DNA of 64,000 bases, taken from the NCBI GenBank assembly GCA_900316235.1, contig ONCC01000003.1, forward strand, positions 1 through 64,000, in the 5' to 3' direction. Of this stretch, positions 3,117 to 50,810 are shown piece by piece. The notes beneath the pieces were generated by a model that was not told the DNA's origin, searched no databases, and was given only the letters and a program-made list of their open reading frames with translations. Both the position numbers and the translations under genes were made by a program. Within the stretch, counting starts at the first letter, position 1. Every line of letters starts with the position of its first letter. This DNA is from an uncultured Bacteroidales bacterium (GTDB taxonomy: Bacteria; Bacteroidota; Bacteroidia; Bacteroidales; P3).

Positions 3117-4481
3117 CTACACATCAATCTCCCCACTTATTCGGTCGTCGCCCCAGACGGAATACATATTAGAGCGACCTTCGTTGAGGGTCATCTTTCC
3201 TTGCGCCTCCAGATGCAGGCGATAGAAGACGCATTGGTGTAGGTCGGCCTTGTCGCACACCACGTCGGTGGCGAAAGCCTCGCAGGTGGGAGCGCCACAT
3301 ACGCCACAGTCAATCTGTGGCAGGTGGGTCTTGAGTTTCTCAATACGTTCCATCTTCTCCAACGCCTTCGAGATATTCTCATCCAAAACCATCATCGATC
3401 GCGGCTGCACCTCGTCAACCTCTGAATTCTCTATTAGATAGTCCTTGTACTCGTCCATCTCGCGGTCGCGCGGCATTTCACCGTTGCGCTCGCGTTCGGC
3501 GGCGCGGCGTGCACGGGCATACATCCTTTCGCCGCAGAGGAAGCGGTTGTCGACACTCAACAGTGCGCCGGCGCAACCCTGGTCGCAAGCCCTCAGCTCG
3601 AGGAACTCCACGCCCTCCACCTCGTCGTTCTCCAGCTTGTCGAGGAAATCCATCACGTTCTGTATACCGTCAATGGCGTAGGAGCGCTTGGCGGAGCAGA
3701 GACGGCGTTCACCGTTGGTGAGAGTGCTGAGCACGGCGTCAGCACTGAGACGATGACGCGTAACGGGCGGGAACTGATGGTTTTTGCCCATGTCCTTGAT
3801 GTGCTTGTAGACTCCGTTGTAGAGCATATTCATATTGATGACGCCGTCAATAATCGACTTCTCCTCACCCACGGGGGCCTTGACGGCCGACACCTTGGCG
3901 GCGCAGGGGGTGATGTAGAAGAGGCCTATCTGCTCGCGCGGCACCCCGCGGCGCTGCAACTCCTCAAGGGCGTACATGGCGCTGAGGTCGAGCGGCACCT
4001 TGATGGGCATCACATTCTCCGCCAGCGACGGGTACTTAATCTGTATCAGACGCACGATGGCGGGACAGAACGACGAAATCAACGGTCTTATGTCAGGATG
4101 CTCGCGGGCGTACTTCTCCTTGGCCTCCTTATAGATGATGGCGGCGCTCTCCACCTCCATGACATGGGCGAAGCCCAGTTCATAGAGGGCGGCATAGACC
4201 TTCGACACACTGATATCGTCGGGGAACTGTCCCAAGAATACCGAAGGTAGCAGGGCCACGGAATGAGGATACTTGCGGAACATCCCGAAGTCATCGTCCT
4301 TGATGGCTACGGCATCCACGGGACACACCTCATAGCAACGGCCACAATCGATGCAACGGTGCTCCTGTATCTCGGCCTTACCGCCGTGGATGCGGACAGC
4401 CTCCGTAGGGCAAATCTTCATGCAGCGCGAGCACCCTATGCAGCGCGGTTCATCAATCTGGAGAGCGTGATAAAAAGCCAT
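3117..4481 (-). CDS. [FeFe] hydrogenase-like protein with C-terminal Fe-S domain (HydS/HfsB-like)
   Basis: 454 residues. N-terminus: two [4Fe-4S] ferredoxin clusters (C14/17/20/24 and C43/46/49/53). Middle (~75-330): a hydrogenase large-subunit fold. The usual TSCCP is SSFCP (Cys139), MPCxxK is TPCAAK (Cys193), and the third motif keeps C299-x3-C303. Thus the four Cys that bind the cubane part of an H-cluster are present, but the proton-relay Cys is Phe138. C-terminus: a four-Cys Fe-S domain (C392, 395, 400, 417; CGVCGAPTC) as in RnfB-type proteins. Family members are thought to be sensory or regulatory rather than efficient H2 producers; that role is inferred here. It follows an RsbW-like ATPase and a DRTGG protein, the usual companions. 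The spacer to the ATPase gene is a heptamer palindrome. Confidence 0.85.
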   Translation of the reverse strand: MAFYHALQIDEPRCIGCSRCMKICPTEAVRIHGGKAEIQEHRCIDCGRCYEVCPVDAVAIKDDDFGMFRKYPHSVALLPSVFLGQFPDDISVSKVYAALYELGFAHVMEVESAAIIYKEAKEKYAREHPDIRPLISSFCPAIVRLIQIKYPSLAENVMPIKVPLDLSAMYALEELQRRGVPREQIGLFYITPCAAKVSAVKAPVGEEKSIIDGVINMNMLYNGVYKHIKDMGKNHQFPPVTRHRLSADAVLSTLTNGERRLCSAKRSYAIDGIQNVMDFLDKLENDEVEGVEFLELRACDQGCAGALLSVDNRFLCGERMYARARRAAERERNGEMPRDREMDEYKDYLIENSEVDEVQPRSMMVLDENISKALEKMERIEKLKTHLPQIDCGVCGAPTCEAFATDVVCDKADLHQCVFYRLHLEAQGKMTLNEGRSNMYSVWGDDRISGEIDV

Positions 4482-4488
4482 ATCTTTT

Positions 4489-4560
4489 GGTTTAAGGTTT
4501 AAGGTTTAAGGTTTAAGGTTTCGGGGCATGTAGTGTTCCGTAAACCCTAAACCGTAAACC
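4489..4560. repeat. Inverted pair of 7-nt tandem arrays (no gene inside)
   Basis: Left arm: GGTTTAA at 4489, 4496, 4503 and 4510 plus a GGTTTCG at 4517. Right arm: the complement type, GTAAACC/CTAAACC, at 4540, 4547 and 4554. Between them is a ~16-nt loop. The arms can pair as a long G/C-A/T hairpin. The structure fills almost the whole spacer between the HydS-like start (4481) and the ATPase stop (4561). Confidence 0.9.
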
Positions 4561-4974
4561 TTACTGGAAGTTCACTTCCATCTCGACGGTGGTGCCTACG
4601 CCCACCTCGGAGGTAACATTCATCTTGTCGACATTCTTCTGCATGTTGGGCAGACCCATACCGGCGCCGAAGCCCATGTCGCGAACCTCGGGGCGGGCGG
4701 TACTGTAACCCTCCTGCATAGCCAGCGCTATGTCGGGTATACCGGGACCTTTGTCGGCCACCACCATCTTTATCTTGTCGGGGTCAATGTCGACTATCAC
4801 CTTGCCGCCGTAGGCGTGGGCTATGGCGTTCACCTCAGCCTCATAAAGGGCCACGACGACGCGCTTCACCACCTGCGGGTTCACGTTGAGCTGCTTCAGC
4901 GTCTTCTTGACAGAACTGGAAGCCTTGCCGGCATTGACGAAATCGCCTTCTATGACTGTGTATTCCTGATGCAT
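4561..4974 (-). CDS. RsbW-like histidine-kinase-type ATPase
   Basis: 137-residue stand-alone GHKL ATPase. The N box is seen in YEAEVNAIAHAYGG, the G1 box in ADKGPGIPD and the G2 box in GFGAGMGLPNM. The length matches single-domain anti-sigma/serine kinase-type proteins such as RsbW or SpoIIAB, but the typical anti-sigma partners are absent. In Bacteroidota and Clostridia this gene recurs beside HydS-like and DRTGG genes, so a regulatory role around hydrogenase is likely but unproven. It is probably co-transcribed from the promoter upstream of the DRTGG gene. Its stop codon directly abuts the 4489-4560 heptamer structure and its start lies about 16 nt from the S23 element. Confidence 0.85.
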   Translation of the reverse strand: MHQEYTVIEGDFVNAGKASSSVKKTLKQLNVNPQVVKRVVVALYEAEVNAIAHAYGGKVIVDIDPDKIKMVVADKGPGIPDIALAMQEGYSTARPEVRDMGFGAGMGLPNMQKNVDKMNVTSEVGVGTTVEMEVNFQ

Positions 4975-4990
4975 AATTATATTTTTTAAG

Positions 4991-5466
4991 GGTTATGGGT
5001 TATAGGTTATGGGTTATGGACGGCTTGCGCAATCTCGTGGGTTATGGGGTTGGTTATCAAAATAATTCTTTAAGCCAGAAAGCATTTTCGCAACATGGAT
5101 AAATTGAGGTCTGATTTCATCAATATTTTCTTGCGTCAAATAGCCGAGATCTTGTGCAATCTGGAGCTGACTGAAAGCCTCCATCAATGATCCGTATGCG
5201 ATTTCGATAAAATGCGATTTCTCCTTAAATGAGCTACGGCCACTTCCTTCGGCAATATTTGATGTAACAGAAGAAGCAGAGCGTCTGATTTGGTCTCCCA
5301 AAGCATAAATCTCATACTTTGGAAATTGATGTTGCACTCGATAGACGTCTCTAACCAAAATACGAGCCGCCTTGTAAACATCCAAATCCTCAAACGAAAA
5401 ATTCTTCTCCATCATAGTATTAAACCTGCGTCAGCGTCCATAACCCATAACCAATAACCCATAACC
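4991..5466. mobile_element. 476-bp element: S23-type gene between 32-bp heptamer inverted repeats
   Basis: The ends are 32-bp inverted repeats, 4991-5022 and 5435-5466, differing at one position (A at 5004). Each repeat is itself about four copies of a heptamer, GGTTATG on the left and CATAACC on the right, ending in GGACG / CGTCC. Inside is a single gene for a four-helix-bundle protein (5014-5415), whose C-terminal codons lie in the left repeat. The element occupies the spacer between the DRTGG gene and the ATPase gene with no effect on either frame. No transposase and no obvious target-site duplication are seen. Calling it mobile is inference from the symmetric ends and compact cargo. Confidence 0.7.
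5014..5415 (-). CDS. Four-helix-bundle protein (23S rRNA intervening-sequence protein family, Avd-like)
   Basis: 133 residues with the S23/IVP family pattern: FEDLDVYKAA at the N-terminus, FPKYEIYALGDQIRRSA, SNIAEGSGR, then FIEIAYGSLMEA and a C-terminal helix ending near YFDN. The family (TIGR02436/PF05635) was first found in intervening sequences of 23S rRNA genes and is related to Avd, the accessory protein of diversity-generating retroelements, which binds nucleic acid as a pentamer. No rRNA gene, reverse transcriptase or variable repeat is present here. The gene is on the same strand as the surrounding hydrogenase operon and is framed by heptamer inverted repeats; the last codons are supplied by the left repeat. 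Its function in this setting is unknown; action on the flanking repeats is only a hypothesis. Confidence 0.88.
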   Translation of the reverse strand: MMEKNFSFEDLDVYKAARILVRDVYRVQHQFPKYEIYALGDQIRRSASSVTSNIAEGSGRSSFKEKSHFIEIAYGSLMEAFSQLQIAQDLGYLTQENIDEIRPQFIHVAKMLSGLKNYFDNQPHNPRDCASRP

Positions 5467-5470
5467 TTGT

Positions 5471-5812
5471 TTAATACAACGGTTTCATTCCGGCACCGTA
5501 GAGGATGCCGCAGGTTTTAAACATCGAATAGGGGGTGCAGATGAGAATCATGTCGTTCTCATCGGCCAACTCCACCATGTCCTCTGTGGGGCGCTTGCCA
5601 CGCACGAAAATGACCACCTCGAGGTTGGCCATATCACATGTGCGGATGGTCTGCACATTGCACAGTCCCGTGATAAGCACAGGAGTATCTTTGAGCGTCA
5701 GCACATCGCTCATCAGGTCGGAAGCGAAGCAAAACTCCTCTTCCCTATCCAGTTTGTCGGAGCCAAGTCCTACTGAAGCGCCGAGTTTGTCTACAATTTC
5801 CTTTAATGTCAT
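5471..5812 (-). CDS. DRTGG domain-containing protein
   Basis: 113-residue protein. It starts at the ATG of MTLKEIVDKLG (5812); an open frame extends further upstream but is AT-rich, contains the promoter and lacks protein-like composition. The sequence has the DRTGG-like core (DLMSDVL, LITGLCNVQTIRTCDMANLE, VIFVRGKRP) and ends YGAGMKPLY. Such stand-alone DRTGG proteins recur next to RsbW-like ATPases and HydS-like proteins. DRTGG domains are otherwise found in phosphotransacetylases and CBS proteins and may bind a nucleotide or ligand; the specific role is unknown. It appears to be the first gene of the operon DRTGG, (S23 element), ATPase, HydS-like. Confidence 0.8.
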   Translation of the reverse strand: MTLKEIVDKLGASVGLGSDKLDREEEFCFASDLMSDVLTLKDTPVLITGLCNVQTIRTCDMANLEVVIFVRGKRPTEDMVELADENDMILICTPYSMFKTCGILYGAGMKPLY

Positions 5813-5850
5813 AATGATTAATATGGTTTTTCTGTGTTGGTTTGAAAGTG

Positions 5851-5882
5851 CAAAATTACAAATAATATTTTTAATTTGCAAA
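5851..5882 (-). promoter_or_regulatory. Promoter of the DRTGG/ATPase/HydS-like operon
   Basis: Minus strand: -33 TTTG (5879-5882), 20-nt spacer, -7 TAATTTTG (5851-5858). Start of transcription predicted near 5845, about 33 nt before the ATG. Confidence 0.6.
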
Positions 5883-5930
5883 TTTTTTTTCTCCGTGGCA
5901 CCCTCCGATAGCATTTTGGTAGCTCTGTTG

Positions 5931-6009
5931 TCCGCTTGTTCTCCGCTTGTTCTCCGCTTGTTGTTCGCTTTTAAACCGAACAACAATCGAACAACAAACG
6001 AACAACAAC
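5931..6009. repeat. Inverted pair of 11-nt tandem arrays
   Basis: Left arm: TCCGCTTGTT at 5931, 5942 and 5953 with a diverged unit at 5964. Right arm: CGAACAACAA at 5977, 5988 and 5999. Every step is exactly 11 nt, and the arms are imperfect reverse complements. It lies in the divergent spacer 5813-6081, which otherwise holds only the DRTGG promoter. Confidence 0.85.
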
Positions 6010-6081
6010 TGAATAACTATGCTAGTCATAGGCTTTTAGATGGAGACGCAATAAAATGGGCGAGCCAACGTTATAGGGGAG

Positions 6082-6993
6082 ATGAAACCGATTGAACCAC
6101 TGAAAAAGGGCGACACCGTGGCCTTGGCGGCGACGGCCCGCAAGGTGAGCCCCGAGGAGATGGTGCCGGCCATCGAGCGGCTGCGAGCCTGGGGGCTCAA
6201 CGTGCTGGTTCCCGAGGGGTTGTATGCCGAGGAGCACCAGTTCGCCGGCAGCGACCTTCACCGCGCTGCGTTGCTGCAAGGTCTGCTGGATGACCCCAAG
6301 GTGAAGGCCATCCTCTGCTGCCGCGGCGGATACGGCACGGTGCGCATCATCGACCGGCTGGATTTCAGCCACTTCGCCGAGCATCCCAAGTGGATTGTGG
6401 GTTACAGCGATGTCACCGTCCTCCACAGCCACCTCCACACCCTGGACTTCCCCACCATCCATGGCACCATGCCCATCAACTTTAGCCCCGCGGAGAGCGC
6501 CGCTACAGAGAGCCTGCGGCGGGTATTGTTCGGGGAGAAGGTCGACGTCAGTTGGCAGGCGGAAACGTCCTCGGTACCAAACCGCGAGGGCACGGCCGAA
6601 GGAGTGACGGTGGGAGGAAACCTATCGATTCTATATAGCCTCTGCGGCTCTCGTTCACAGATAGATACGCACGGGAAAATACTGCTTGTCGAGGACTTGG
6701 ACGAGTACCTCTACCACATCGACCGCATGATGCAGTGCCTCAAGCGTGCCGGCATGCTCGAAGGGCTGGCAGGGCTGGTGGTGGGCGGCATGACCGACAT
6801 GCACGACAACACCGTCCCGTTCGGTCACACAGCAGAGCAAATTGTGATGGAAGCGGTGGCGGAATACAATTTCCCCGTCGCCTTCGACGCCCCATTCGGA
6901 CATCTGGGAGACAGCAACTTAGCCCTCACGCTGGGGAGAAAAATGAGGCTCGAGGTATCCAATTCAAAAAAAAGTCGTATATTTGCACCCTGA
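6082..6993 (+). CDS. ldcA: LD-carboxypeptidase (muramoyltetrapeptide carboxypeptidase, family S66)
   Basis: 303 residues, normal for S66 peptidases. The catalytic triad is visible: Ser109 in GYSDVT, Glu204 in LLVEDLDEY and His274 in PFGHLGDSN. The RGGYGTVRI segment before the nucleophile is also typical. The enzyme removes the terminal D-Ala from murein tetrapeptides during cell-wall recycling in the cytoplasm. There is no signal peptide, in agreement. First of four tightly packed genes (polysaccharide deacetylase, kdsC, rlpA-like follow); its stop codon touches the next ATG. The end of the gene carries a promoter box for the next gene. Confidence 0.92.
   Translation: MKPIEPLKKGDTVALAATARKVSPEEMVPAIERLRAWGLNVLVPEGLYAEEHQFAGSDLHRAALLQGLLDDPKVKAILCCRGGYGTVRIIDRLDFSHFAEHPKWIVGYSDVTVLHSHLHTLDFPTIHGTMPINFSPAESAATESLRRVLFGEKVDVSWQAETSSVPNREGTAEGVTVGGNLSILYSLCGSRSQIDTHGKILLVEDLDEYLYHIDRMMQCLKRAGMLEGLAGLVVGGMTDMHDNTVPFGHTAEQIVMEAVAEYNFPVAFDAPFGHLGDSNLALTLGRKMRLEVSNSKKSRIFAP
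6978..6985 (+). promoter_or_regulatory. Internal -7 box within the end of ldcA
   Basis: TATATTTG, 8 nt before the ATG of the deacetylase gene, would give a nearly leaderless transcript. No clear -33 TTTG is present. It may let the downstream three genes be expressed apart from ldcA. Confidence 0.45.
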
Positions 6994-21960: not shown

Positions 21961-22040
21961 CATCGACCTACCATCTCCTACTATGGTAAGGGATGGGTAG
22001 GAGGTGAGTAGGGGTTGAGTAAGAGTTGAGTAAGAGCGGG
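21961..22040. repeat. 11-nt tandem array with partial inverted arm
   Basis: TGGGTA or TGAGTA cores at 21994, 22005, 22016 and 22027, spaced exactly 11 nt. Left of it lies CCTACCATCTCCTACT (from 21968), an imperfect complement of the first units. The spacer 21842-22189 otherwise holds only the two divergent promoters and AT-rich sequence. Confidence 0.8.
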
Positions 22041-36608: not shown

Positions 36609-36685
36609 ACCTACCATCTACCTATCATCTCCTACCGTGGTAGGACTTGGGTAGGAGTTGGTTAGGAGTTGATAGGTAGATGGTA
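36609..36685. repeat. 11-nt-period inverted arrays with CCTACC/GGTAGG centre
   Basis: CCTA cores at 36610, 36621 and 36631; TAGG cores at 36641, 36652, 36663 and 36673. The left arm (36612-36634) matches the reverse complement of the far right (about 36660-36682) at 22 of 23 positions; two extra right-hand units lie between. In the spacer 36340-36775 only this repeat, one promoter box and one terminator are seen. Confidence 0.88.
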
Positions 36686-50710: not shown

Positions 50711-50810
50711 AACACCCTACCAACTCCTACCCAACTCCTACCGTGGTAGGAGTTGGTAGGGTGTTAATAGGGGGGTGGTAGGGGGTTCATAGGAGATAGG
50801 TAGGTAATGT
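50711..50810. repeat. Largest 11-nt inverted array: 21-bp perfect inverted repeat plus tail
   Basis: 50712-50732 and 50746-50766 are perfect 21-bp reverse complements around an extra CAACTCCTACC unit. TAGG then continues at 50758, 50769, 50780, 50791 and 50802, exactly 11 nt apart. It shares the unit GGTAGGAGTTG with the array at 36609. The 303-nt spacer 50602-50904 otherwise holds the two divergent promoters. Confidence 0.92.

Follow-up and report, generated by a model that had tools for sequence, protein, structure and literature searches.

An S23 gene framed by inverted heptamer arrays belongs to a widespread, apparently undescribed family of probably mobile bacterial elements

The element and its host operon

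The DNA analysed here (the window, 64,000 nucleotides) lies on contig C37 of the genome of an uncultured Bacteroidales member (G000), whose near relatives are rumen and gut MAGs. Its minus strand carries an operon in the order DRTGG gene, S23 gene, HATPase gene and hydrogenase-like gene. As an earlier note on this DNA had proposed, an S23 gene with paired ends fits into a spacer of this operon, namely the 499-nt DRTGG-HATPase spacer, which contains nothing else. The features are as follows.

3117-4481, minus strand: [FeFe]-hydrogenase-like iron-sulfur protein, host operon gene, outside the element
4493-4563, no strand: gene-less inverted heptamer hairpin of unit GGTTTAA, one spacer further along this operon, where the relative G008 has an S23 element
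4561-4974, minus strand: HATPase / anti-sigma-like host operon gene, downstream, outside the element
4991-5022, no strand: 3' terminal arm (5' and 3' as for the S23 gene), matching heptamer array whose tandem signal starts at 4986
5014-5415, minus strand: S23/IVP four-helix-bundle gene, 133 aa (PF05635, 2e-35; model pLDDT 93; best fold match 2GSC)
5023-5032, plus strand: inner core motif GCTTGCGCAA adjoining the 3' arm, inward reading
5426-5435, minus strand: inner core motif GCTGACGCAG adjoining the 5' arm, with kindred motifs in further hairpins of the genus, both with and without S23
5435-5466, no strand: 5' terminal arm, heptamer array, minus-strand reading GGTTATG GGTTATT GGTTATG GGTTATG GACG
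5471-5812, minus strand: DRTGG-domain host operon gene, upstream, outside the element

The two 32-nt arms pair at 31 of 32 positions (97% complementary) across 412 nt, which bears out the single mismatch noted earlier, and the inner ends match as GGACG/CGTCC, again as described. Tandem Repeats Finder resolves period-7 arrays at 4986-5019 (4.9 copies of TTATGGG) and 5438-5466 (4.1 copies of CCATAAC), in agreement with the reading of the arms as GGTTATG-type heptamers. The description of one S23 gene and nothing else between the arms holds in so far as the ORF at 5014-5415 is the sole notable ORF there and the single PF05635 gene, but its final codons and stop (5014-5022) fall inside the left arm, so that gene and arm overlap. 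Folded as RNA, 506 nt of this region reach z = -6.2 against shuffles, the arms pairing as a single long stem. An Rfam scan of 4300-6200 gave no match above gathering score, and the sub-threshold matches miss the element. Just 5' of the DRTGG gene, the window also carries inverted 11-mer arrays (TTGTTCTCCGC / GAACAACAA type) that leave hardly any loop (5926-6008).

The encoded protein meets the requirement for family membership in PF05635 (121.7 bits, cut-off 33.8) and matches TIGR02436 (110.4 bits, cut-off 24) and, weakly, bAvd. Its predicted structure matches 2GSC (XCC0516 of Xanthomonas) best, with TM 0.83-0.94, and also 2RLD (BT_0352 of B. thetaiotaomicron); in Foldseek the model places Avd (4DWL / 8UBE) next, at TM 0.72-0.73 and only 7-8% sequence identity. 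Within the close S23 group around this element pN is about 0.11 with synonymous sites saturated, implying that arrays and protein have been retained despite the decay of neutral sequence; judged from these substitution patterns, the protein is under strong purifying selection. Elsewhere in G000, S23-like domains with weak PF05635 matches occur in longer ORFs of 198-230 aa (L004-L007), possibly a diverged or fused branch.

Inverted arrays as a property of S23 loci

S23 loci were sampled from the same genome, from 40 relatives and from 65 GTDB loci, mostly Bacteroidales, and each was scored by aligning its 5' flank to the reverse complement of its 3' flank, with a threshold of 14. This threshold was reached by 68.3% of 139 S23 genes versus 2.3% of 215 other genes at the same loci; the earlier note would have been refuted by S23 copies that lacked such flanks, an outcome that the majority of copies avoids. 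The window's element scores 29, and none of the 215 control genes reaches 25, which excludes chance. When the 5' arm of one element was mispaired with the 3' arm of another, 2.3% reached 14. Direct instead of inverted flank matching gave 13.7% versus 68.3% at the same score, a far weaker match on which direct repeats were rejected as the flank type. The S23 loci below 14 make up 32%, and the array-free exceptions are largely a genus ortholog of 150-170 aa, together with short or fused copies. This ortholog (L003, L032-L037, L067-L070, L072) is conserved in the genus and apparently vertically inherited; it offers a natural control and may be a domesticated form.

The majority of arms are tandem arrays, and among these the period is 7, or doubled to 14, in 53 of 80 and 8 in a further 16, periods of 6 or 9-13 being rare. 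The unit is common to both arms within any one element and varies between elements: GGTTATG in the window, and elsewhere GGTTTAA, AGTTTAG, GAGTGAAAGG, GTTGATAC, TTAGCGG, GCAAGGA, AGTGGTC and more. A single common repeat sequence is rejected, since units differ and mispaired arms fail to match. G outnumbers C in the 5' arm of 93 of 95 elements, C averaging only 4.7%, and because the pair is palindromic this G-first polarity is the same on both strands. A comparison of the order of variant units in the two arms leans positive, with 35 of 38 elements exceeding the mean of shuffles, but only four do so at p<0.05 and the choice of arms biases the comparison, so that no weight is placed on it.

The array also follows the protein. 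Between elements at different sites, the share of array 5-mers in common rises from 7% below 30% protein identity to 29% at 60-70% and 50% above 80% (Mantel r 0.43, with 0 of 999 permutations as high). This covariation is consistent with each S23 protein recognising the array of its element, an inference for which there are no binding data, and common descent of whole elements also contributes to it.

Other repeats of G000 are recorded here separately. At its second S23 gene (L186 2740-4230, contig C51), arrays of GTTGATAC type run in alternating orientation outside the element and also surround neighbouring coding segments. The window further contains dispersed palindromes of 11-nt period, CCTACCAACTCCTACC...GGTAGGAGTTGGTAGG, uniform, C-first and with no gene inside (21986-22036, 36612-36685 and 50711-50765), and the same family recurs at L177:8359, L178:12961, L181:6808, L183:11955, L188:9387 and L190:13887. 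These were kept apart from the S23 arms because they form one uniform C-first family.

Filled, empty and gene-less sites

The same spacer with identical sequence in all relatives would likewise have refuted the earlier note; presence/absence variation is found instead. Across the hydrogenase operon of 30 same-genus genomes, S23 occupies the DRTGG-HATPase spacer in G000 only, and in the other 29 genomes examined this spacer measures 7-114 nt and is free of S23. G008 carries S23 one spacer further on, between the HATPase and hydrogenase genes. Elsewhere in the genus these same spacers hold a few nucleotides or gene-less hairpins built of inverted short arrays that have other units. In G009 the DRTGG-HATPase spacer contains a 41-nt gene-less GGTTATG palindrome, TAAAAAGGTTATGGGTACCCATAACCCTTAAAAAA; it shares with G000 the outer flanks and, in each arm, the initial 10 nt. 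A second Bacteroidales site, 5' of a near-universal gene of the genus, is filled in G001 and G019 and spans 12-137 nt in 28 others, and S23 proteins 78-85% identical to that of the window are encoded at unrelated sites.

Plasmids provide the boundaries. In plasmid C of Trichormus variabilis ATCC 29413 (L235), about 423 nt comprising arrays and S23 are absent from Nostoc carneum and Fremyella plasmids (L258/L259) with flanks 97-98% identical; (G)TAAT stands on both sides of the insert and once in the empty site, and six further records of this site lack S23. Two Nostoc plasmids, 89-99% identical near the sites, each carry an S23 element at a site that is vacant in the other, and pairs resolved to the base are L239 versus L241/L263/L265 and L241 versus L239/L263. 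In a Calothrix plasmid (L240), about 518 nt replace 11 nt of L261/L262. At four plasmid loci the inserted DNA is, at base resolution, exactly S23 plus its arrays. The target duplication varies, being (G)TAAT at L235, ATG at site 2 of L241 and possibly TTCTA at L239, alongside the 11-nt replacement at L240. Decay is seen in a truncated copy (L260) and an interrupted one (L264). In the latter, from a Nostoc plasmid, the S23 element is split at 1371-1505 by hairpin-rich sequence with another AGTCAGG-type array, a nested insertion.

At L009 3063-3158, L052 3559-3687 and L117 2449-2537, gene-less hairpins have their arms and inner core in common with an S23 copy at the same locus, and the inner core GCTGACGC(A) recurs within the window's genus in hairpins with and without S23. 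Few gene-less hairpins were found in the 423 kb of G000 surveyed, indicating that they are not abundant there, and no near-identical copy pairs were seen within one genome, which gives no sign of a recent burst.

Distribution and placement

Beyond the Bacteroidales, 13 of the first 15 plasmid S23 loci score at least 14 (the 15 comprise 13 cyanobacterial loci, Azospirillum and Riemerella), each with a unit of its own, GGTGACA, AGTCAGG, GGGAGTA, GGGTGTA, AAAAGGG and AGAGGAC among them. A Gemmatirosa plasmid and further cyanobacterial S23 genes have the same build; a Treponema locus is weaker (score 13), and one of three loci qualifies in a MAG titled Tissierellales. A phylum-wide Bacteroidota sample has S23 in 90 of 118 genomes, with up to 16 copies per genome; only 36% of its top loci score at least 14, and more show fainter traces of period 7. 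Phage origin was rejected, as S23 had no match among 50,697 phage records. What goes beyond the earlier note is that the repeat unit varies by element, that gene-less derivatives exist and that the association spans phyla.

Host spacers are tight and the operons unrelated, including cas6/cas4, cmr2/cmr3, conjugation (tra), nrdB/nrdA and hydrogenase. Among 91 array-bearing copies with both neighbours known, 62 lie in sense between co-directional genes, 9 lie antisense and 20 lie between convergent or divergent genes. Within CRISPR-Cas operons of cyanobacterial plasmids, S23 elements or genes were observed in the cas6-cas4 interval of type I-D and the cmr2-cmr3 interval of type III-B (L232, L238, L236).

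Relation to known systems

The closest known system is the rRNA intervening sequence (IVS) with an S23 gene. The Coxiella burnetii IVS, of 428 nt, has a 28-bp terminal stem and an S23 ORF, is processed by RNase III, and a once-mobile origin has been suggested for it (PMC4990558). The 23S rRNA IVSs share with the present element a single S23-family ORF, a total of about 430-500 nt, paired ends forming a long stem, a sporadic distribution and hypothesised mobility. They differ in location, since the elements described here occupy spacers of protein-coding operons and not rRNA, so that the element at 4991-5466 has the paired-end stem of an IVS but not its place within a 23S rRNA gene. Their arms also differ from the tandem heptamer-type arrays with an element-specific unit found here, where filled and empty sites are documented as well.

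Avd, the accessory protein of diversity-generating retroelements (PDB 4DWL, 8UBE), has the same four-helix-bundle fold, and its homology to PF05635 has been remarked (PMC10053308). The S23 element differs in its 7-8% identity to Avd and in lacking an adjoining reverse transcriptase or template/variable repeats. A diversity-generating retroelement is ruled out, as the NCBIfam Avd model gives 20.8 bits against a cut-off of 80, short of the equivalog criterion, with no adjacent reverse transcriptase. REPIN/RAYT and MITE-like systems resemble the family in their short intergenic hairpins, gene-bearing and gene-less forms and small insertions; the S23 element differs in encoding no HUH transposase and in having tandem-array arms whose unit varies by S23 clade. 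Four Y1_Tnp genes occur elsewhere in G000 and none in G103, and none is encoded in the element. Some of those of G000 are RAYT-like genes adjoining REP-like hairpins such as CAGGGGTTAAAACCCCTG and GCAGGCGTCCCGCCTGC (L196, L197, L198).

Heptanucleotide arrays are known as GGGAATC in Xanthomonas and GGGGATT in Nostoc, with 70-75 inverted pairs per Xanthomonas genome but no function, mobile-element link or mention of S23 (PMC4692102), and TAACTGA arrays have likewise been described with neither function, mobile-element link nor mention of S23 (PMC4679880). These repeats resemble the present arms as intergenic heptamer arrays, inverted pairs in Xanthomonas included; what differs is the tie to a gene-bearing element, which is new here and untested for Xanthomonas. 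The earlier note knew of no stand-alone S23 element with heptamer ends, and we found no earlier description of one in the open-access literature; others cannot be excluded.

Mechanism and alternatives

That S23 and its arrays form a mobile unit is highly probable, which upholds the earlier suggestion of a compact stand-alone element able to move, now that empty sites and flanks have been compared; this is limited by the fact that transposition or excision was never observed directly and that target duplications are not uniform. The fuller explanation sees 4991-5466 as a single member of a family of minimal mobile elements whose ends are recognised by S23 and which are integrated in trans, and it seems to us reasonably likely. 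It builds on observations, namely the association of S23 with arrays, matched element-specific arms, G-first polarity, filled and empty sites, relatives at 78-85% identity elsewhere and purifying selection, and adds inferred steps to them. The element would insert into intergenic spacers, often exactly at a stop/start junction and mostly in sense, a placement by which S23 would be transcribed from the host operon. An S23 oligomer may recognise the stem built by its own arrays, given that protein identity predicts the unit, keep the element folded, be it RNA or single-stranded DNA, and pass it to an integrating activity of the cell supplied in trans. Gene-less hairpins would then be derivatives or remnants of S23 copies. 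Template switching in hairpins of quasi-palindromes can keep arms alike, and the likeness of the arms here may be kept by such hairpin-templated copying or by selection for pairing, with neither favoured by the data.

The element contains neither a recombinase nor a reverse transcriptase, S23 being the only gene inside, and no enzyme for movement was identified. Excision by a linked reverse transcriptase is rejected: none stands beside the element, G002 has S23 elements without an RVT_1 match, and the complete genome G103, with nine S23 matches of which some are array-flanked, matched neither RVT_1 nor Y1_Tnp. In G000 itself RVT_1 has two weak matches only, on other contigs. Dependence on a Y1 transposase of the same genome finds no support in G103 or G104, from which Y1_Tnp is absent; G104 has S23 matches (array flanks not inspected) and no RVT_1. 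With S23 as sole gene, and G103 and G104 lacking both families, we therefore favour binding of the folded ends by S23 and a cellular activity in trans. Whether S23 is required for movement is an even question on present evidence. Sense bias and likeness to IVSs make an RNA stage plausible without establishing it; that the intermediate is RNA and not single-stranded DNA we propose only tentatively, leaning slightly against it, and the sense bias could stem from selection after insertion.

The same stem (z -6.2) and sense bias (62:9) would be expected of an intervening sequence acting at the RNA level in mRNA, where RNase III cuts the stem as in 23S rRNA IVSs, freeing the S23 mRNA and separating its neighbours, with movement rare and secondary. 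The Coxiella IVS, which RNase III cleaves in vitro and which combines a 28-bp terminal stem with an S23 ORF (PMC4990558), is a precedent, and this account stays possible as a minority view; it leaves unexplained the empty sites with exact boundaries and the copies at unrelated sites, and about a fifth of the copies with inverted repeats have no co-directional gene upstream.

Gene-less hairpins in the same spacers and genomes, and RAYT-like Y1_Tnp genes with REP-like hairpins in G000, could instead mean that the inverted arrays are themselves mobile or self-generating, through a Y1/HUH RAYT-like or other host activity as for REPINs, with S23 as chance cargo in the loop. We consider this unlikely, because S23 is a specific cargo (68% vs 2.3%) under strong purifying selection and its clade predicts the unit, because REPINs have one sequence per genome whereas here the unit varies by element, and because G103 has array-flanked S23 copies and no Y1_Tnp. 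A further alternative is host regulation, in which S23 would be a regulator that binds RNA and is encoded within a stem-loop governing expression of S23 itself or of the operon, template switching keeping the arms alike and apparent mobility being gene loss. This would suit the purifying selection and intra-operon placement, but is very improbable given unrelated operon contents (hydrogenase, cas, cmr, nrd, tra), an excess of empty over filled sites (28:2 at the second Bacteroidales site) and two Nostoc plasmids each filled where the other is empty.

Implications

The family of S23 array elements is widespread across several bacterial phyla and apparently undescribed. A broader reading of the mobile S23 unit would make it a new kind of mobile element, in which the sole gene is a four-helix-bundle nucleic-acid chaperone and the ends are the matched unit arrays that it recognises; it would explain many heptanucleotide repeats and the origin of S23-bearing rRNA IVSs, and would depend for movement on chemistry provided in trans, perhaps by way of its operon's RNA. 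We regard this as close to an even call that falls just on the doubtful side. The main risks to the newness of the element are the restriction to open-access literature and the unknown machinery.

To our knowledge, no function has been assigned to the S23 genes of rRNA IVSs in about three decades, nor do we know of an explanation for the tandem heptanucleotide repeats found in cyanobacteria, xanthomonads and Bacteroidota. As a single insertable unit, S23 gene and heptamer repeats join these two puzzles, and both become testable. Such a unit would be a mobile element that itself encodes no known recombinase or reverse transcriptase, and with copies in hydrogenase, cas, conjugation and ribonucleotide-reductase operons, its stem may alter the expression of neighbouring genes.
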